This document shows positions 2,685 to 12,580 of a stretch of DNA of 64,000 nucleotides, one piece after another. Both the position numbers and the translations under genes were made by a program. The notes below the pieces were generated by a model. It ran no database searches, was not told the DNA's origin, and saw only the letters and a program-made list of their open reading frames with translations. The number at the start of each line of letters is the position of its first letter. Position 1 is the first letter of the stretch. Source of the DNA: a virus; IMG/VR virus record IMGVR_UViG_3300042335_000796, positions 1 to 64,000 of that record. One strand, written 5' to 3'.

Positions 2685-3173
2685 ATGGCTGATTTATTAA
2701 TGAAAATGCCCATACCTTATGAACCTAAAAGACAAAATAGGTTTATTTTAAGGTTTCCATCCACATTAGGAATAAATGAATGGTTTGTTGAAACTGCAGC
2801 AAGACCAAGTTATAAAGTAAATGCTACAGAAATTCAATTTTTGAATACTTCAACATATGTTGCTGGTAGATTTAATTGGAACCCTATTACTGTTAAATTT
2901 AGAGACCCTATAGGTCCATCAGCGTCTCAAGCTATTATGGAATGGGTTAGACTTTGTACTGAATCTGTTACAGGTAGAATGGGGTATGCTGCAGGGTATA
3001 AGAAAAATGTTGATTTAGAGATGTTAGACCCAACTGGTGTTGTTGTTGAAAAATGGATACTTGAAGGTACTTTCTTAGAATCCGTTAACTTTGATTCATT
3101 ATCATATTCTCAGGATAGTATAGCAAGTATTACAGCAAGTCTTAGAATGGACCGTTGTATTCTTGTTTATTAA
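2685..3173 (+). CDS. Tail tube protein (gp19-like)
   Basis: A 162-aa protein, almost the length of T4 gp19 (163 aa), the subunit whose stacked hexamers form the inner tube of contractile tails. The sequence has the gp19 layout: an N-terminal segment (YEPKRQNRFILRFP), alternating beta strands, and a C-terminal strand ending SLRMDRCILVY. It starts with ATG after an A-rich leader and no Shine-Dalgarno motif. Just downstream are an intruding homing endonuclease and then the chaperone and tape measure genes. The sheath gene, usually beside the tube gene, is not in the window. It is expected upstream of the LRR array. Confidence 0.85.
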   Translation: MADLLMKMPIPYEPKRQNRFILRFPSTLGINEWFVETAARPSYKVNATEIQFLNTSTYVAGRFNWNPITVKFRDPIGPSASQAIMEWVRLCTESVTGRMGYAAGYKKNVDLEMLDPTGVVVEKWILEGTFLESVNFDSLSYSQDSIASITASLRMDRCILVY

Positions 3174-3230: not shown

Positions 3231-4808
3231 ATGGATTTAAATTTTTTTTTATTAAATAACAAATCAGGATTTAAAACTAAGGAAGCTTGGTTTAAAAAGA
3301 ATTATCCTGATGAATATTTAGATATTTTAGACTATTCAAAAAACATTGATTGTTCATTTAAAGAAAGAATTTGGTTTTATTTTAATAAAACCATTGAACG
3401 ACCTAAATGCTTCAATTGTAAAAATGAATTAAAATTCAACGAAAGATTCGATAATCCATATTCAGAATTCTGCTCAATACAATGCTTTAACTCAAATAAA
3501 GAAGAAATGATTAAAAGGCAAGTTAAAACATTTAATGAAAAATATGGTGTAGATTTTTACCCCAAATGTAGTGATTTTATTAAAAAACAAAAAATAACAA
3601 AACATCAAAGATATGGGAATGAAAATTATGTTAATGTTGATAAAATAAAGGAAACTAAGAAAAAAAGATATGGTAATGAAAATTATACTAATATTGAAAA
3701 ATATAAAATAACTTGTATATCGAAATATAATACTGATAATTATTCAAAGTCTAATCATTATAAAGAAATAATTAATAAAAAATATTCAGAATTATATCCT
3801 AATATAAATTTTATAGAAATTAATAAAAGTTTTGTAAAAATTCATTGCCATAAGTGTAATTCTAATTATGAAATATCAAAACAATTAATATATGAAAGAA
3901 ATTTAAGAAATTATGAAATATGTATAAATTGTAATCCTATTGATGTTTCTAAAAGAAGTGGTTATGAAGATGAAATTATACAATTCTTAATTAAAAATAA
4001 TATTGAAATTATCAAAAATTATAAATTTAATAATTCAAAAAAAGAGATAGACATATTTTTACCAAAATATAATTTAGGTATTGAATTTAATGGGTTATAT
4101 TGGCACTCAGAACTATTTAAGAGTTCAACATATCATCTTGATAAAACGGTTTTAAGTAAAAATGAAAATATTGATTTACTACACATTTTTGAAGATGAAT
4201 GGATTTATAAAAAAGAAATTGTTAAATCAATAATTTTAAATAAATTAGGTATTTTAACTGAAAAAATAAATGCTCGAAATTGTGTAATTAAAGAAGTTTC
4301 ATATAATGATTCAAAAGATTTTTTAGAAAAAAATCATATACAAGGAAATGTTAAATCAAGTATTAGATTAGGATTATATTTTGAAAATGAATTAGTTTCA
4401 TTAATAACATTTTCAAAAGGTCGTATAATTATGGGTGGTAAAAGTGATGAATTTGAACTAAATAGGTTTTGTAATAAACTTAATACAATTGTTGTTGGTG
4501 GATTTTCTAAACTTTTTAAATTTTTTACTAAAAATTATAAATTTAATAAAATTATTTCATATTCAGATATAAGATATTTTAATGGTGGAATATATCTTAA
4601 AAATGGTTTTAAATTTATACATCAAACAAATCCAAACTATTGGTATATTGTTGGCGACTTAAGAATGCATAGATTTAATTTTAATAAGAGAAAATTAATT
4701 TCTATGGGTTACGATTCAAATAAAACTGAAAAAGAAATAATGATTGAAAGAAAAATATATAGAATATATGATTGTGGAAATATTAGATGGGAATATGATT
4801 TACAATAA
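3231..4808 (+). CDS. Putative free-standing homing endonuclease (Vsr/EDxHD-like nuclease)
   Basis: This 525-aa protein is unlike its structural neighbours. In order it has: a zinc-finger-like site (C60, C63, C81, C85); two short repeats around RYGNENYxN (residues 120-160) of a kind common in phage endonucleases; a second four-cysteine site (C206, C209, C231, C234); a nuclease core near residues 240-340 with motifs EIDIF (D274), GIEFNG (E285) and YWH (H292), typical of Vsr-like or EDxHD enzymes; and a C-terminal domain (about 350-500) seen in Hef-type proteins. It is Lys/Asn-rich. Such genes copy themselves by cutting allelic sites lacking them, here presumably a neighbouring tail gene. The exact family is not certain. 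Confidence 0.7.
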   Translation: MDLNFFLLNNKSGFKTKEAWFKKNYPDEYLDILDYSKNIDCSFKERIWFYFNKTIERPKCFNCKNELKFNERFDNPYSEFCSIQCFNSNKEEMIKRQVKTFNEKYGVDFYPKCSDFIKKQKITKHQRYGNENYVNVDKIKETKKKRYGNENYTNIEKYKITCISKYNTDNYSKSNHYKEIINKKYSELYPNINFIEINKSFVKIHCHKCNSNYEISKQLIYERNLRNYEICINCNPIDVSKRSGYEDEIIQFLIKNNIEIIKNYKFNNSKKEIDIFLPKYNLGIEFNGLYWHSELFKSSTYHLDKTVLSKNENIDLLHIFEDEWIYKKEIVKSIILNKLGILTEKINARNCVIKEVSYNDSKDFLEKNHIQGNVKSSIRLGLYFENELVSLITFSKGRIIMGGKSDEFELNRFCNKLNTIVVGGFSKLFKFFTKNYKFNKIISYSDIRYFNGGIYLKNGFKFIHQTNPNYWYIVGDLRMHRFNFNKRKLISMGYDSNKTEKEIMIERKIYRIYDCGNIRWEYDLQ

Positions 4809-4835: not shown

Positions 4836-5579
4836 ATGAACGAACAATTTCAAAATAATATTACTCTACCCCATGATATTGTAAAATTATCATCTGGCGG
4901 AATTTTTTATAAAAATAATAAGAAAAGTGTAAAAGTTGGATATTTAAGTGCTTCAGATGAAAATTTAATGTTAGCTGTTGGCAGTATTAAAGATTCATTT
5001 GTTTTAAGGCTTATTCGAGAAAAATTATATGAAATTGATATTAAGCCTGAAGAATTATTACAGGGAGATATTCAATCAATATTATTATTTTTACGCAATA
5101 CATCATTTGGTCCTGAATATACAACAACAGTTATTGACCCAATGACTAATAAACCATTTGAAGTTACAGTATTATTAGATGAGGTTAATTTTATAAAACC
5201 TAAAGTTAAGATTAATGAAGATTTAACATTTTCAACAATTTTACCTAAGAGTAATAAATCAATTAAATTAAGACCATTAACATATGGTGAAATTGAGGAA
5301 ATTAATATTGCGGCTGATAGGTATCCTGATGGAATGATTGCGCCAGTAAATACTTGGAAACTTAATAAAATGGTTGTTGAATTAGATGGTAATAATGATT
5401 TAAGTTATGTTTCAGAAACTATTTCAAAATTACCAATAGCTGATGCGAAATATATTCGTAAATTCATGCTTGAAAATGAACCAGGATTAGATTTAACAAA
5501 AGAAGTTACAGCCCCATCAGGAGTAAAAGTTCAAGTAAAACCGAACTTTGGGGTTGACTTTTTTCGTCCTTTCTTCTAA
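4836..5579 (+). CDS. Tail assembly chaperone, short form (T4 gp26-like)
   Basis: A 247-aa protein directly upstream of the tape measure gene. It resembles the T4 gp26 baseplate/chaperone group: N-terminal beta-rich segment (VKLSSGGIFYKNNKKSVKV), a helical part (ENLMLAVGSIKDSFVLRLI), a strand pair around TVIDPMTNKPFEVTV, and a C-terminal half with LRPLTYGEIEEINI. It ends GVDFFRPFF at a TAA, but an open frame continues immediately in the +1 frame to 5721 and encodes a plausible C-terminal domain. Position and frameshift fit the G/GT type of tail chaperones that coat the tape measure during tail assembly. Annotation as a gp26 homologue is from recognition of sequence character and context. Confidence 0.65.
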   Translation: MNEQFQNNITLPHDIVKLSSGGIFYKNNKKSVKVGYLSASDENLMLAVGSIKDSFVLRLIREKLYEIDIKPEELLQGDIQSILLFLRNTSFGPEYTTTVIDPMTNKPFEVTVLLDEVNFIKPKVKINEDLTFSTILPKSNKSIKLRPLTYGEIEEINIAADRYPDGMIAPVNTWKLNKMVVELDGNNDLSYVSETISKLPIADAKYIRKFMLENEPGLDLTKEVTAPSGVKVQVKPNFGVDFFRPFF

Positions 5580-5721
5580 TTATCGTGAGCTTCAATCTTG
5601 GGAATATTATATTTGTACAAGATATTTGAATGTTTCTTATACAGATTATTTAATAATGCCAATATATTTGCGTAAATTTTTAATAGAACAATATATTGAG
5701 TCTAAGACACCTAAAACTTAA
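5539..5721 (+). CDS. C-terminal extension of tail chaperone, reached by +1 (or -2) frameshift
   Basis: Open frame overlapping the end of the 4836 gene in the +1 frame. The coding part after the short-form stop reads SNYRELQSWEYYICTRYLNV and continues to residue signature KFLIEQYIE, a normal-looking helical sequence. The frame has no ATG before 5656, only TTG codons at 5548 and 5554. Candidate slip sites are the six-T run in GAC TTT TTT C (5559-5565) and the TTC TAA T at the short-form stop. A +1 shift would give a 294-aa product ending at 5721, 30 bases before the tape measure gene. This is the usual architecture of phage tail chaperones, but the site and efficiency are inferred. Confidence 0.6.
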   Translation, partial: NRTLGLTFFVLSSNYRELQSWEYYICTRYLNVSYTDYLIMPIYLRKFLIEQYIESKTPKT

Positions 5722-5750: not shown

Positions 5751-7607
5751 ATGGCGGAACAGAATAATAGTTATATACCATCTGAAGATTTTAATGTAAA
5801 TAAATTAATACCTTCTTTAGCTGCAGCTATAAAGAATGAGTTTTATGCTTCATTAATAGGTGATGTGACAGATACTTTTCAAAGTATTGAAAATTCAATA
5901 ATAAATATCACTAAGCAATTTGGTGGTGGACGTGAAATGTCTAAAGCTATTGAAAGAAATTTTGCAGATGCTACAATTCAAGTAGGTCAATTAGGTGGTA
6001 CATTAAAAGATATTGAAGCAATACAAGTTAGTGTAATTAAAGCAACTAATACACAAACAATATTAAATGGCGAAGCATATGCATCACTTTATGCAACATC
6101 TAAATTAATTGGCGATAATACCAAAGATGCAAGTCAAGTTGTCGGTGAAATGATTCAAAATATTACAAAAGTTGGTTATGGTTTATATGATACTACAAAG
6201 CAATTATCAACAGTAATTGATTTAGCAAGACAATATGGATTATCAACTACATCAATATATTCACAATTAAAAGATAATATTTCTGCAGTTAATTTATACA
6301 ATTTTGATAATGGTGTTCAAGGATTATCAAAAATGTCAGCACAAGCTGCAATGGTTAAAGGTAATATTAGTGACACTTTAAAATTTGCTGAAAAAGTTTT
6401 TTCACCAGAAAAAGCTATAGAAACTGCAGCATCATTTCAAAGACTTGGGGTTCAAGTTTCTGAATTACTTGACCCATATTCATTAATGGATATGGCAAGA
6501 AACAGACCTGAAGATTTACAAAAATCGATTATTGAAGCAACCAAAGAGTTAACATATTTTGATGAAAAAAATAATAGGATTTCAATATTACCTGGTTCAC
6601 AAGAAAGATTAAGAGAACTTGCACCAGTTCTTGATATGAGTGCAGATAAGCTTGCAGAATTAGCAATTAATTCAGCTAATTTAGAAAGAAAACTTAAAAC
6701 AATTCAGTTTAAAGATTTCATGAATGAAGATGATAAAACATTAATTGCTAATTTAGCACAAATGAAAGATGGTAAATACGTAATTGATGTACAAGGTGTT
6801 GAAAAAGATGTTGTTACTTTAGATGAAAAAGATATTGAAGCCTTGAAAGTTGACCCTGATAAGTCAGCCATTCAATTACAAAGAGAATCAAATGGTAGTT
6901 TATTAAATATACAAAATGATGTTGCAGCGATTAAAACAGCAACAGCTGTTAGATTTTCAACAAATGAAGAATTAAAACAAGTTGTTAAAACTTTAAGTGA
7001 AAAAGCTTTTATAGCTACAGAAACTATAGCCACGGGTGTTGGGTTTAAAAGGCAAATATCTGGAGAAGGTGAAGGATTATACAGTGATATTGATGTTAAA
7101 AATTTCATTAATGATAAATTAGGTGGAACTATTAGAGAATTTTATGCAACTTTTACTGGTGAAAGGTCGCCTATGGAAGTTCTTGAGAATTTAAAAACTG
7201 CACTTACAGGAACTTTTGAATCAATAACAGGTTTTATCAATGATATTCCTAAAAATTATGAAGAAGCTAAAAAAAATATGCGAGAAATTGACCCAGAATA
7301 TGGTAAATTTCCAAATGATTTTGAAAAATCAACTAAAGAATTAAAAGAAAAAATATTGGGTTCAAATGTTTCAGAATCAACAAACAATACAAACAGTAAT
7401 AATTCAACTGCAAAAACTTTAACTGAACCTACACAAATAAATTTAGTTCATACGCATAATATAAATATCAATGGACAAAATTTACCACAATTGGTTGCAA
7501 ATATTCTAAATAGTTCTGAAATGATTAGTACATTAGATTTGAATATGAGTAAATATAAGGAAGAAGTTAATAATTTAATTGGTAAAAATATAGAAATGAC
7601 TGGTTAA
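5751..7607 (+). CDS. Tail tape measure protein
   Basis: A 618-aa, largely helical and Ala/Ser-rich protein, close in size to T4 gp29 (590 aa), which sets tail length. The N-terminal half has the look of a tape measure (FGGGREMSKAIERNFADATI, then repeated helical Ala/Gly/Ser segments). The C-terminal part (residues 520-618) is low-complexity Asn/Ser/Thr and then a short beta segment (NLVHTHNININGQNLP). No clear transmembrane helix is seen. The location after the frameshifting chaperone and before very large baseplate genes strongly supports the call. If length scales as in other phages, the tail should be about as long as that of T4. Confidence 0.75.
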   Translation: MAEQNNSYIPSEDFNVNKLIPSLAAAIKNEFYASLIGDVTDTFQSIENSIINITKQFGGGREMSKAIERNFADATIQVGQLGGTLKDIEAIQVSVIKATNTQTILNGEAYASLYATSKLIGDNTKDASQVVGEMIQNITKVGYGLYDTTKQLSTVIDLARQYGLSTTSIYSQLKDNISAVNLYNFDNGVQGLSKMSAQAAMVKGNISDTLKFAEKVFSPEKAIETAASFQRLGVQVSELLDPYSLMDMARNRPEDLQKSIIEATKELTYFDEKNNRISILPGSQERLRELAPVLDMSADKLAELAINSANLERKLKTIQFKDFMNEDDKTLIANLAQMKDGKYVIDVQGVEKDVVTLDEKDIEALKVDPDKSAIQLQRESNGSLLNIQNDVAAIKTATAVRFSTNEELKQVVKTLSEKAFIATETIATGVGFKRQISGEGEGLYSDIDVKNFINDKLGGTIREFYATFTGERSPMEVLENLKTALTGTFESITGFINDIPKNYEEAKKNMREIDPEYGKFPNDFEKSTKELKEKILGSNVSESTNNTNSNNSTAKTLTEPTQINLVHTHNININGQNLPQLVANILNSSEMISTLDLNMSKYKEEVNNLIGKNIEMTG

Positions 7608-7648: not shown

Positions 7649-10600
7649 ATGCCAAGTCCTTTAGATTTTCCATCAACAGCAAGTTTTAGAAATGCTTTAA
7701 TAGTAAGGAATTTAAGTCCATATTCAGTTCCTGGAGTATATTCACCACCAAGTGGACCAAGAATATATGAAGTAATTCAAAGAGATTTACCAGTTATTGA
7801 TTCTGATGATAATTTAATTTTAAATGACCCTTTTGCGGATATCTTATATCCATTAAATGCTTATGGACCATCTGGCGGTTACAATAAAAATATTAATGCA
7901 GGTAATTTAGCAAATACAAAAACTAATTTAGGTGAATATGATTATTCAGATGCGAATTTATTAATTAATAGTGAACAATTTACTAAAGACTCATTTAATA
8001 ATAATATATTTAATCCGTCACCAAATACTTCAACATTTACTGTTGGTAATACTATTCAGCCAAGAACTGGTCCAACTGTTCAATTTTATACTAATTATGG
8101 CGTTCCAACTTCTTTTGTTCCATCATCATATTCACCATATCAACTTTTATTACAAGATAATCCTCAAGGTACTAATGGAAGATTATCACAAGATTCATAT
8201 TTAGCGAGACTTGGTGCAACAACATTAAGAAACGAATTTAGAGAAAGAATTGCAAGAGAATTAACACAAAATACAATAGGTAGAGTTAATTTACCTAATG
8301 CTGTTTCAGACCCTATTGAAGCTTTACAAATTTTACAAGGTAAAAGACCACTTATAGAAAGAGATTGGGTAATTACAAGACCTTCAAATTTAGCATTAAG
8401 AGGCATAGATTTTACAGCAAGACTATCTGGGGCTTATTATCCATCATCACCAATTCCTGGTGAATATTTTCAATTTAGTGAACAGAATTTAAGTCTTTTT
8501 GGTCAGATATCTGCAGCGTTTAATAATGGTAAAACGCCATCTGGTGGTATTTTGGGTAAAGTTATGGGTTTACTTTCAAAAGAAAAAAATCCATCGCAAT
8601 TATTTTTGGATAATACTGGTGATGGTCAAAAATCACAATTATTTTATCTTCTTGATTATAACAAATATACGCCAACATATGAGCGTAGTAATTTGGGGCT
8701 TGTTAATACTGTAAGAGACTTTTTTAGAAGCTTATTGGATAAACCTTCTGAAGGTGGTTATTATGTTGGTAGTAAACAATCTGAGCCATCATTAATAAAC
8801 TCACCAAGTGGAGACTTGCCATTAAATTCTTTTGGTCAAGAAGTTCAGTCACCAGTATATGGTCCTGAAGTTTTAAGTAATTTATTTGAAGGGGACCAAA
8901 GATTAAAATTTGGATTTAATGGTAAAAGTTTAACAGATGGTGGTGGTATTGACGGTGGTTTTGTTTGGACTTCACAAAAGTACAATAATCCAGGATTTAA
9001 AGCGACTGTTGGTGGAGACCAAGGTCCTGAAGATTCTGAATTCAATTTGATTAAATCACAAATTGATTCATCAATATCTCAAAATTATAACTTTAAACAA
9101 GGTTCTATCTTAGATATTACACAAAGATTAGTTGATTCTACGCCAAATGGTTCTAAAAGATTATCTCACGTTGGTAATGCTATTAATCAATTAAGTAAGG
9201 TGTTTAATGATGGATATAAAGAAATAACTAAAGGGTCTAAAGTAATTGGATATACTAATCCATCTAAAGGCCAGTACGTTTCGTCAAATATTTATTGCAG
9301 AGTATTCACCAAAGATACGCCATATTATACATATGCAGATTTACAAAAAACTGATGGTAATATTCGAAAATTTACATATTCAATATTAGATAATACATAT
9401 AATTTAAATATTGCACCATTAAAAAATCCTGGTTCAACAAATATTGTAGATAATAAAGTTAAAAAATATATGTTCTCACTTGAAAATCTTGCATGGAGAA
9501 CATCAAATAGACCAGGATTTACATACGATGATTTACCAGTTTGTGAACGAGGCCCCAATGGTGGTAGAATAATGTGGTTTCCTCCGTATGATTTACAATT
9601 TAATGAGTCGGCAACACCATCATTTCAAGATAATGATTTTCTTGGAAGACCTGAACCAATATACACATATAAAAACACTAAAAGAACTGGTAGTGTTAGT
9701 TGGAAGATAATTGTTGACCATCCAAGCATATTAAATACCATTGTTAATAATGAATTAAGAAAAGAGACAAATACTGAAAATATTAATGCAATTGTTGATT
9801 CATTTTTTGCAGGATGTTTAAAATATGATATATATGAGCTTGCAAAACGTTGGAATACATTATCACCTAATGAATTATTTGAAATTCAAAAAATAATTAC
9901 TGATGTTAATTTAAAAGGTGAAGATTTAGACAATTTGAAAAAAAATGCTCAGAGTGTTAATTTACAAAATTCTGAACCAAATGGTGATAGTGGGGTAAAT
10001 CCAGATATTTCATCAAACAATATTAATATAATTAATTTTAGTAATTATGAAAATTTAGGATTTTATTTTGATAATGATTATCCAGACCCCAAAACTGAAA
10101 GGACAACGGCAACTGCTAATTTTCAAACTTGGTATAATACATATACATCGCCAAAAGATATTAAAAGATATCAAGATAACGCTAAAAACAAACAATCTGT
10201 TGATACATTTTTTGAAAAAGTAATAATTAATAATTACAATTATATTAATTCTGAATTATTAAATGCTATTCAAGAGTATTTTGAAAGTTTTATTAATGTA
10301 AATAATGATGGTGTAAAGCCAAATTTAAAAATATTTCTTAAAGGTTCAGCATCATCACCAAATACAAAAAATTATAACATTAATTTATCTAAACGTAGAA
10401 TAGATTCTGTAAAAAAATATTTTGAAACTATTCGTGATGGGTTTTTTAAACCATATGTTGATAACAAAAATTTAGAAATTTCTGAATCAGCTCTTGGTGA
10501 AGAAACAACTGTTACGCCACGTACAGTACCTTCAGATATTACTTATAATTCTTATAATTGTACGGATGCGGATACAAACAATGTAAATTATGATAAGATA

Positions 10601-12580
10601 TATTCTGTAGATGCTATGGCGTGTCGTAGAGTTGTTATTGATAAAATTGTAGCTTACTATCCACCACCAGTAAACATTAATACGCAAAATACGACACAAA
10701 ATAATGACCCTAATGAAGTTATTATAACACCGCCAAGGCCAACAGTAACAATTCAGCAAAAATTAAGAGATGGTATATCTAAAAAGATTTTAAGAAGATT
10801 ATTATCTGAATGTGATTATTTTGAATTAATTAAAGAATCTAATCCGATGTTTTATGATTCAGTTAAAGAAAAACTTAAATATTTTTCTCCAGCATTTCAT
10901 TCAATTACACCTGAAGGATTAAATTCTCGATTAACATTTTTACAACAATGTACAAGACCTGGTGACACAATACCAGTAATTGGTACAGATGGTAAACCAA
11001 AATATGATAATGCAACAAATACTAATTTTGGTGCACCACCTGTTTTAGTTCTTAGAATTGGTGATTTTTTTCATACGAAAATTGTTCCAACGGGTTTACA
11101 AATTGGTTATGACCCATTAGTTCTTGATATTAATCCTGAAGGTATTGGTGTTCAACCAATGATTGCTAAAGTTACATTAAATTTTAATTTTGTTGGTGGG
11201 CAAGGTCTAAAAGAACCGATTAATAAATTACAAAATGCCTTAAGTTTTAATTATTATGCGAATACTGAAATGTTTGACGAAAGAGCTGACGCTACTGATG
11301 ATTCGTATAAAGTATTTGATGAGGATTTAAAAAATGATATATTGTCCCAAAGTCAACCAGTATTACCTGTTAATAATAATATTGAAAATGCTGGTGGTCA
11401 AACAATTGGTACAATATTAACACAACAAAGTTTAGAAAATGGTATTTCAGGTACAACTTCATATCAAAAAATAATGGGAGCATTATTAACAGATGGTCAA
11501 ACATATATTGACTCAGTGTATAATAAATTTAATCAGATTATTACAAATTATAATTTACCATTGGTTAATTTGCTTACACAATCTGTTAAGTATAATACGG
11601 GTAATATTTTACAATACAGTGCGGAACCAAAGTCATTAAAAATTATTGGCAAATCTGATTCATATGAGTCATTAATAATTAGTTTAACTAATAAAATAAT
11701 TGATGAAATTGAAAAAGTTAATAGTAAAAATGATGATGGTTATGGTTTAATTAAAGAATTATATAATAATAATTGTAAAAAAACTTACATTAAACAATTT
11801 AAATTAAATTTAATTAATTATTTACTTAGATTACAAGAAAATGTTATATTAAATTTAACAGAGATTAATAATGAATTTGTATCTGTTCAACAAAAATTAA
11901 TTACAGATTTTTCAAAAATCGATTTTGTTGCAACATTAAGTGATGGTTATATTAATTCGAATCAAGATGCAATAGTATATAATCTATTATCAACAACTGG
12001 CGTTACACCAAATAGTAAATATGCTAATACATTAGATGAGTTAGTTGGTGACTATAAATTAAGTAGTGATAAATTAAATAGTTATTATCAATTATATAAT
12101 CAATATAATTTAGTTAATAAAGATATTACTATTAATAATCTTAGTATAGTAAACGAAATTGAAAATTTTAAATTCTTAGCAAATACTGATAAATTAGTAT
12201 ATGTTTTAATGTCAAATATTATTTTAAATAGTGAAGAGTTTAATAAATTTACTGATGCTGTTTTAAAAGATATTGAAATTGATATTAATTTAAGTACAAC
12301 AAATGTAAAAACAGTTTTTAATAACTATTTTAAGAATAAGGAACCAATATATCGAGGTCAATATAATAGTGATTTAACATATTTTAAAGGAATTACCTCA
12401 GAATATAATTTATTATATAAAAAATGGAGTCAATTTGATAACACGTCTAATAGAGTTTTTAATTTTAACAATTTTACACCAGCAACTGATGAACAAAAAA
12501 CGAGGATTCAAAATATATATAAAAACGGTAATTCAAATGAAGATACCAAAGTGTTTAATGGAAAAAATAAATTAAATTGA
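7649..12580 (+). CDS. Very large baseplate hub/tube-initiator-like protein with OmpA-like segment
   Basis: A 1643-aa protein between the tape measure and gp53-like genes, so a baseplate hub or tube-initiation role is likely. Around residues 640-700 lies a segment with MWFPPYDLQF, GRPEPIYTYKNTKRTGSVSW and VDHPS. Near 1150-1215 is GVQPMIAKVTLNFNFVGG followed by LQNALSFNYYANT. I associate both motifs with baseplate proteins that nucleate the tail tube. Between them, at about 855-935, the motif KGSASSP...NINLSKRRIDSVKKYF resembles the OmpA C-terminal peptidoglycan-binding domain. T4 counterparts (gp48, gp54) are about 320-365 aa, so this is a strongly expanded or fused protein. It ends in TGATG, overlapping the next gene by one base. 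Confidence 0.5.
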   Translation: MPSPLDFPSTASFRNALIVRNLSPYSVPGVYSPPSGPRIYEVIQRDLPVIDSDDNLILNDPFADILYPLNAYGPSGGYNKNINAGNLANTKTNLGEYDYSDANLLINSEQFTKDSFNNNIFNPSPNTSTFTVGNTIQPRTGPTVQFYTNYGVPTSFVPSSYSPYQLLLQDNPQGTNGRLSQDSYLARLGATTLRNEFRERIARELTQNTIGRVNLPNAVSDPIEALQILQGKRPLIERDWVITRPSNLALRGIDFTARLSGAYYPSSPIPGEYFQFSEQNLSLFGQISAAFNNGKTPSGGILGKVMGLLSKEKNPSQLFLDNTGDGQKSQLFYLLDYNKYTPTYERSNLGLVNTVRDFFRSLLDKPSEGGYYVGSKQSEPSLINSPSGDLPLNSFGQEVQSPVYGPEVLSNLFEGDQRLKFGFNGKSLTDGGGIDGGFVWTSQKYNNPGFKATVGGDQGPEDSEFNLIKSQIDSSISQNYNFKQGSILDITQRLVDSTPNGSKRLSHVGNAINQLSKVFNDGYKEITKGSKVIGYTNPSKGQYVSSNIYCRVFTKDTPYYTYADLQKTDGNIRKFTYSILDNTYNLNIAPLKNPGSTNIVDNKVKKYMFSLENLAWRTSNRPGFTYDDLPVCERGPNGGRIMWFPPYDLQFNESATPSFQDNDFLGRPEPIYTYKNTKRTGSVSWKIIVDHPSILNTIVNNELRKETNTENINAIVDSFFAGCLKYDIYELAKRWNTLSPNELFEIQKIITDVNLKGEDLDNLKKNAQSVNLQNSEPNGDSGVNPDISSNNINIINFSNYENLGFYFDNDYPDPKTERTTATANFQTWYNTYTSPKDIKRYQDNAKNKQSVDTFFEKVIINNYNYINSELLNAIQEYFESFINVNNDGVKPNLKIFLKGSASSPNTKNYNINLSKRRIDSVKKYFETIRDGFFKPYVDNKNLEISESALGEETTVTPRTVPSDITYNSYNCTDADTNNVNYDKIYSVDAMACRRVVIDKIVAYYPPPVNINTQNTTQNNDPNEVIITPPRPTVTIQQKLRDGISKKILRRLLSECDYFELIKESNPMFYDSVKEKLKYFSPAFHSITPEGLNSRLTFLQQCTRPGDTIPVIGTDGKPKYDNATNTNFGAPPVLVLRIGDFFHTKIVPTGLQIGYDPLVLDINPEGIGVQPMIAKVTLNFNFVGGQGLKEPINKLQNALSFNYYANTEMFDERADATDDSYKVFDEDLKNDILSQSQPVLPVNNNIENAGGQTIGTILTQQSLENGISGTTSYQKIMGALLTDGQTYIDSVYNKFNQIITNYNLPLVNLLTQSVKYNTGNILQYSAEPKSLKIIGKSDSYESLIISLTNKIIDEIEKVNSKNDDGYGLIKELYNNNCKKTYIKQFKLNLINYLLRLQENVILNLTEINNEFVSVQQKLITDFSKIDFVATLSDGYINSNQDAIVYNLLSTTGVTPNSKYANTLDELVGDYKLSSDKLNSYYQLYNQYNLVNKDITINNLSIVNEIENFKFLANTDKLVYVLMSNIILNSEEFNKFTDAVLKDIEIDINLSTTNVKTVFNNYFKNKEPIYRGQYNSDLTYFKGITSEYNLLYKKWSQFDNTSNRVFNFNNFTPATDEQKTRIQNIYKNGNSNEDTKVFNGKNKLN

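Follow-up and report, generated by a model that had tools for sequence, protein, structure and literature searches.

A conserved and very probable +1 ribosomal frameshift in a tail assembly chaperone gene of T4-like phages

The chaperone gene and the open frame behind it

In the window (the whole stretch of 64,000 nucleotides analysed here, which is contained in a 91.5-kb virus record), the frame of a tail assembly chaperone gene closes shortly before the next gene, and the +1 frame runs on across that stop. This raises the question whether the downstream frame belongs to the chaperone and is reached by ribosomes changing frame, or has another origin. We consider it highly probable (about 0.92) that the gene makes a second, longer chaperone by a ribosomal +1 slip from UUU to UUC, which would yield a pair of products of the G/GT type.

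All genes concerned lie on the plus strand. The gp19-like tail tube gene (2685-3173; phrog_4542, 5e-26) is followed by a homing endonuclease gene of the HNH/MTES_1575 type (3231-4808; phrog_3339), by the chaperone gene itself (4836-5579), whose zero frame encodes a short, G-like form of 247 aa, and by an ORF at 5751-7607. The chaperone matches PF12322 (T4_baseplate; E = 1.8e-8, 34.8 bits with a curated cut-off of 24.5), as do T4 gp26 and gp51, and phrog_150 (E = 1.8e-12). No family match above the cut-off was obtained for the ORF at 5751-7607, which is a probable tape measure gene by position; in the phages immuto, LIS04 and SP-15 a tape measure is annotated at the equivalent place. The window has the gene order tail tube, chaperone, tape measure, the last assigned by position, with the endonuclease gene interposed, and the placement directly before the tape measure gene agrees with what an earlier note on this DNA had reported.

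A homologue of the endonuclease, 37% identical to window 3231-4808, also lies directly 5' of the chaperone gene in the distant huge phage LR756508 (L003, 1859-3592). Besides, four to five paralogous proteins carrying 'LESLGNLTEVGG'-like repeats are encoded as a tandem array 5' of the tail tube gene (9-2443), and 7649-12580 encodes a 1643-aa tail-module protein with a weak OmpA-like domain at 868-963 (PF00691, 5e-4, below the cut-off).

The zero frame ends as GAC TTT TTT CGT CCT TTC TTC TAA, the stop being read directly from the sequence at 5577-5579. The +1 frame is open from 5539, behind a TAA at 5536-5538, to a TAA at 5719-5721 and thus extends 47 codons beyond the chaperone stop. Entered at GTC 5566-5568, it would add a T-like domain (5566-5721) to give a fusion of 294 aa. 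The only start-like codons 5' of the conserved part are TTG at 5548 and 5554, and the first ATG, at 5656, lies deep within the extension. The earlier note had described the two frames, the six-T run at 5559-5564 and the lack of a nearby ATG correctly. Since the chance of 47 open codons is about 1% by composition, the open frame alone is only mildly unusual; it is conservation that makes the extension compelling.

Near relatives were collected via the tail tube, which gave 79 further contigs, 83-90% identical save for one copy of the window's phage. Including the window, 75 loci with 56 distinct 70-base junctions could be read across the junction. Of the 73 loci uncut by a contig end, 72 have a +1 extension of 42-50 codons beyond the chaperone stop (the exception, L276, stops after 16 codons). 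In every locus the -1 frame is closed within 24 codons, so the near set does not carry the -1-frame extension of a canonical X XXY YYZ frameshift. Within the extension, pN/pS is 0.21 in the +1 frame versus 1.12 and 1.29 in the other frames, and 0.25 in the chaperone itself. A profile of 54 near-relative extensions recovered window 5539-5718 with E = 1.9e-25 as the first of 986 six-frame segments (next 0.15), and a profile of distant extensions, built before the near set was known, also found the window's +1 frame (1.3e-5; next 0.8). The homology begins at the slip itself, with FFVLSSNYR in the window and FFGLTPEYR in the distant set. Judged by these comparisons, the extension, which the earlier note had called protein-like, is really coding and selected as a protein in the +1 frame. 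An extension that lies in another frame and is conserved as protein is also what characterizes the G/GT type.

Contig L001 differs from the window at 23 positions in 8.7 kb, all at 847-953 inside the tandem array; its bases are identical across the junction, although such a near-identical contig is not a fully independent check on the sequencing. With the window's chaperone and tape measure as queries only the near-identical contig was recovered, and a search of bacterial and archaeal genomes returned no relatives. The structural model of the fusion has a mean pLDDT of 82 and three helices in the extension at moderate confidence, computed from an alignment that held no extension rows. A viral fold search led to T4-like baseplate hub proteins and to a protein of an uncultured phage with 51% identity. 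The PDB fold search gave nothing significant, with the HK97 chaperone 2ob9 at E 2.7 only.

The slip site and its competing explanations

At the nucleotide level, comparison shows the near-set junction conserved as GGGG-N5-UUY-UUU-CGN-CCU. In the window, the candidate slip site is UUU UUU at 5559-5564 (plus strand), and most likely the second codon (5562-5564) slips and re-pairs with UUC 5563-5565. This second Phe codon is UUU in all 75 near loci; at the first, 72 loci have UUU and three have UUC, so that in these three the second codon must be the one that slips. A conserved slippery codon in the overlap, as known from G/GT-type genes, is thereby present (UUU in 75/75 near loci, with all 166 loci of the distant tally described below allowing +1 re-pairing).

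The A site at the slip would be occupied by CGU (5565-5567, plus strand), a rarely used Arg codon. CGN stands here in 73 of the 75 near loci (CGG 36, CGC 22, CGT 14, CGA 1; the other two have CTC), and CGG or CGC alone in 58/75 versus 3/656 of the Arg codons upstream, among which AGA accounts for 535/656; rarity is judged on phage genes only. CGN is also partly forced, as its C completes the +1-frame Phe codon and the bases that follow encode Gly, Ala, Val or Asp in that frame.

The second conserved element is GGGG at 5550-5553 on the plus strand, a probable SD-like stimulator 5 nt from the first and 8 nt from the second Phe codon. Three codons ahead of the Phe pair, all 75 near loci encode Gly as GGG and continue with another G, compared with a GGG share of 85/994 (8.6%) among Gly codons upstream. 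As no second frame is translated there, GGGG looks like an RNA-level signal. At the matching Gly column of the distant sets GGG occurs in 60%, i.e. GGGG is not universal. In the distant sets, SD-like bases 23-26 nt upstream were rejected as a stimulator, as they consist of lineage-specific purine-rich codons and lie beyond stimulator reach. No downstream RNA structure was found at the slip site, the Rfam search gave no match and the window contains no tRNA genes.

The distant relatives comprise two sets, related to Flavobacterium phage immuto and Microcystis phage Mel-JY01, respectively, and have the +1 extension in 158 of 158 contigs. In the first set (immuto relatives), pN/pS is 0.23 in the +1 frame versus 1.5-1.8 in the others. 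Here all 155 Phe-coded cases have TTT as the first Phe codon, whereas TTC makes up about a quarter of the Phe codons elsewhere; since some loci read TTT CTA TGG, the first Phe codon is the more likely place of the slip in these sets. The distant tally amounts to 166 loci, among them the window and seven named records that share the +1 arrangement: Bacillus phage SP-15, Listeria phage LIS04, Streptococcus phage GXN1, Pseudomonas phage QdP_Psa3, the huge phage LR756508, Mel-JY01 and immuto. Eight diverse chaperones offered no conserved blocks usable for an alignment-based search, and a mixed alignment of chaperones and extensions was discarded as its extension rows were wrongly placed.

The most serious competitor of a frameshift is a separate small gene with its own start, translated by reinitiation or from an internal start. 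It gains some plausibility from KVP40, where an ATG overlaps the stop, from the annotation of the KVP40 and cyanophage gp51 pieces as genes of their own, from the TTG codons at 5548 and 5554 in the window and from the presence of some upstream +1-frame ATG, GTG or TTG in 73/75 near loci. However, an independent ATG in relatives, which the earlier note had named as refuting its proposal, is no general feature: from the last +1 stop up to the slip, the +1 frame contains neither ATG nor GTG in 45 of the 75 near loci and 90 of the 166 in the distant tally. A start of its own would also leave the conservation of UUU without reason and does not suit a homology that begins at the slip, and in several database records the annotated start is an ATG within the conserved domain, or the frame carries no annotation. 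We regard a separate gene as very improbable.

Slippage of the RNA polymerase on the T run, producing shifted mRNAs, would suit the six to eight Ts of most loci, and a ribosomal shift of -2, which the earlier note had offered as an alternative to +1, would lead into the same frame and is permitted by the window's UUU. Both are even less probable, to about the same degree. The +1 extension is kept in 44 loci of the distant tally with T runs of three or fewer, and three near loci read TTC TTT CGG, which speaks against slippage of the polymerase. The -2 shift is disfavoured because re-pairing is impossible in the same 44 of the 166 loci, whereas all 166 allow +1; the three near loci reading TTC TTT do not permit it either. 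A sequencing error or a recently broken single frame might be suspected in a metagenome-derived record; yet 74 near and 165 other loci, drawn from many samples and from isolate genomes, share the arrangement, and both frames are under purifying selection, which makes this explanation negligible and effectively refutes it for the family. The programmed +1 shift is supported by the frame, the purifying selection and an invariant slip codon with its context in 74 near and 165 distant loci, and the relatives' alignment, the check suggested at the outset, brought out both a conserved extension and slippery bases. Of the two slip sites the earlier note had considered, the six-T run was retained (as UUU 5562-5564 before CGU) and TTC TAA T was dropped, because the distance from the first Phe codon to the stop varies between 9 and 24 nt, whereas UUU-Y is fixed.

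Proposed mechanism and known frameshift systems

For the programmed +1 shift we infer how translation via the slip, its stimulators, the ratio of the products and their binding roles might fit together. Most ribosomes would terminate at 5577 and release the 247-aa short form. In a fraction of them, peptidyl-tRNA-Phe would stand on UUU 5562-5564 with the rare Arg codon CGU in the A site, move one base forward and pair with UUC 5563-5565. These ribosomes would resume at GTC and follow the +1 frame to 5721, giving the 294-aa long form. It is a natural guess that GGGG 5550-5553 pairs with the 3' end of 16S rRNA over a short distance and so probably aids the slip, as in the RF2 gene. Acting like lambda gpGT, the long form would bind the tape measure protein by its common part and recruit tail tube subunits by its extension. 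The products of 5751-7607 (probable tape measure) and 2685-3173 (tail tube) would be the expected partners of chaperone and extension, respectively. This G/GT-type role of the pair is suggested by the protein family and the gene order.

The lambda gpG/gpGT system, reviewed with its counterparts in PMC5009743, resembles the present one in having its chaperone gene flanked by those for tail tube and tape measure, in a short and a C-terminally extended product and in a site just before the short-frame stop. It differs in protein family, the window's chaperone belonging to PF12322. Lambda and its counterparts shift by -1, and the chaperone gene of phage Mu by -2, whereas the shift proposed here is +1 at UUU_C. 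With prfB, the RF2 gene, it would have in common the forward re-pairing at a U-rich P-site codon and, on the 5' side, a G-rich SD-like element that may be stimulatory. That element is spaced 3 nt from the slip codon in prfB and 5 or 8 nt here (GGGG in 75/75 near loci). In prfB a stop codon occupies the A site, while the near set has CGN or CTC there and hence not the RF2-type arrangement; the junction would be a +1 signal of high conservation that works without a stop codon. Moreover, prfB is autoregulatory, and the shift in the window would rather set a ratio. UUU_U is present in a minority of prfB genes (PMC5009743).

As the earlier note had stated, frameshifting of the G/GT type is mostly -1; a likely +1 shift has been predicted in the chaperone gene of the haloarchaeal myovirus HSTV-2 (PMC5009743), and SEA-PHAGES chaperone data include +1 events (PMC10885494). 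These belong to other phage groups and are comparable to the window in the direction of the shift within a tail chaperone gene.

Direction of the shift in the T4-like family

A 2016 review describes G-T frameshifting as conserved in long-tailed phages 'except T4' (PMC5009743). According to papers citing Vladimirov et al. (2022), that study identified the T4-like chaperones, and T4-like phages have either short/long gene pairs or poly-T -1 sites (PMC10885494, PMC12846349). Frameshifting in the T4-like family is therefore not wholly new, since -1 sites and gene pairs are already published. In the literature searched, with Vladimirov et al. (2022) represented by the papers citing it, no +1 shift is described for the T4-like chaperone family. 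Very probably the +1 frameshift is real and strongly conserved as judged from the sequence comparisons, and it is the direction that is apparently new with respect to that literature. The earlier note knew of no frameshift in T4's own chaperone genes; T4 itself has two separate paralogous genes, and other T4-like phages do have published frameshifts.

A -1 extension with U UUU UUC just before the stop occurs in KVP40 and Synechococcus phage Bellamy as well as in Aeromonas, Citrobacter, Stenotrophomonas, Acidovorax and Agrobacterium phages, and in 80/80 cyanophage-like contigs. One Ochrobactrum phage has U UUU UUU with a -1 extension, and in the huge phage LR756511 U UUU UUC lies farther upstream of the stop. 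Cyanophages, KVP40 and others thereby have their -1 site at the same Phe-Phe as the +1 phages. T4 gp26, of the same Pfam family PF12322 as the window's chaperone, ends in Phe-Phe without such an extension, and its -1 frame enters gene 25; gp51 is a separate, long paralogue, so that T4 carries two genes (26 and 51) where KVP40 and the cyanophages have a -1 site and the window a +1 site. The profile of -1 extensions matches the C-terminus of T4 gp51 with 8e-7 and the profile of +1 extensions with 2e-6, each in a single comparison. Through these matches of the -1 family profile, the extension appears to correspond to the C-terminus of T4 gp51.

In a tree of 43 chaperones, the window falls into a supported clade of 20, all of them +1, and the starred branches require the direction to have changed at least twice, with long branches making the deep order unsure. 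On balance, we lean towards a family-wide, so far undescribed +1 signal GGGG-N8-UUU_CGN in a large T4-type branch, in which case the direction would have switched between -1 and +1 at the Phe-Phe and T4 would have gone over to two genes. The pattern fits both the 'except T4' of the review and the cyanophage gp51 lacking its first 200 residues in a 2010 comparison (PMC3037559), as the short piece would be the tail of gp26, shifted by -1 in some lineages and by +1 in others. The pattern would also supply many genomes with a protein that they now lack, the extension in immuto, SP-15, Mel-JY01 and LIS04 being either a hypothetical gene or without annotation, and it provides a natural series in which to study how the direction of a shift is determined at a single dipeptide.

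Two minor observations concern the -1 phages. In the cyanophage-like contigs (L096-L175), the Glu-Gly just 5' of U UUU UUC is encoded as GAG-GGN or GAA-GGG in 78/80, with GGG after GAA in 18/20, so that an SD-like stretch is retained about 8-11 nt upstream of the -1 site. Vibrio phage 207E48.1 (L263, 1198-2102) has a -1 extension without the U UUU UUC heptamer, and the ATG of its downstream gene overlaps the stop, so this lineage may use reinitiation.
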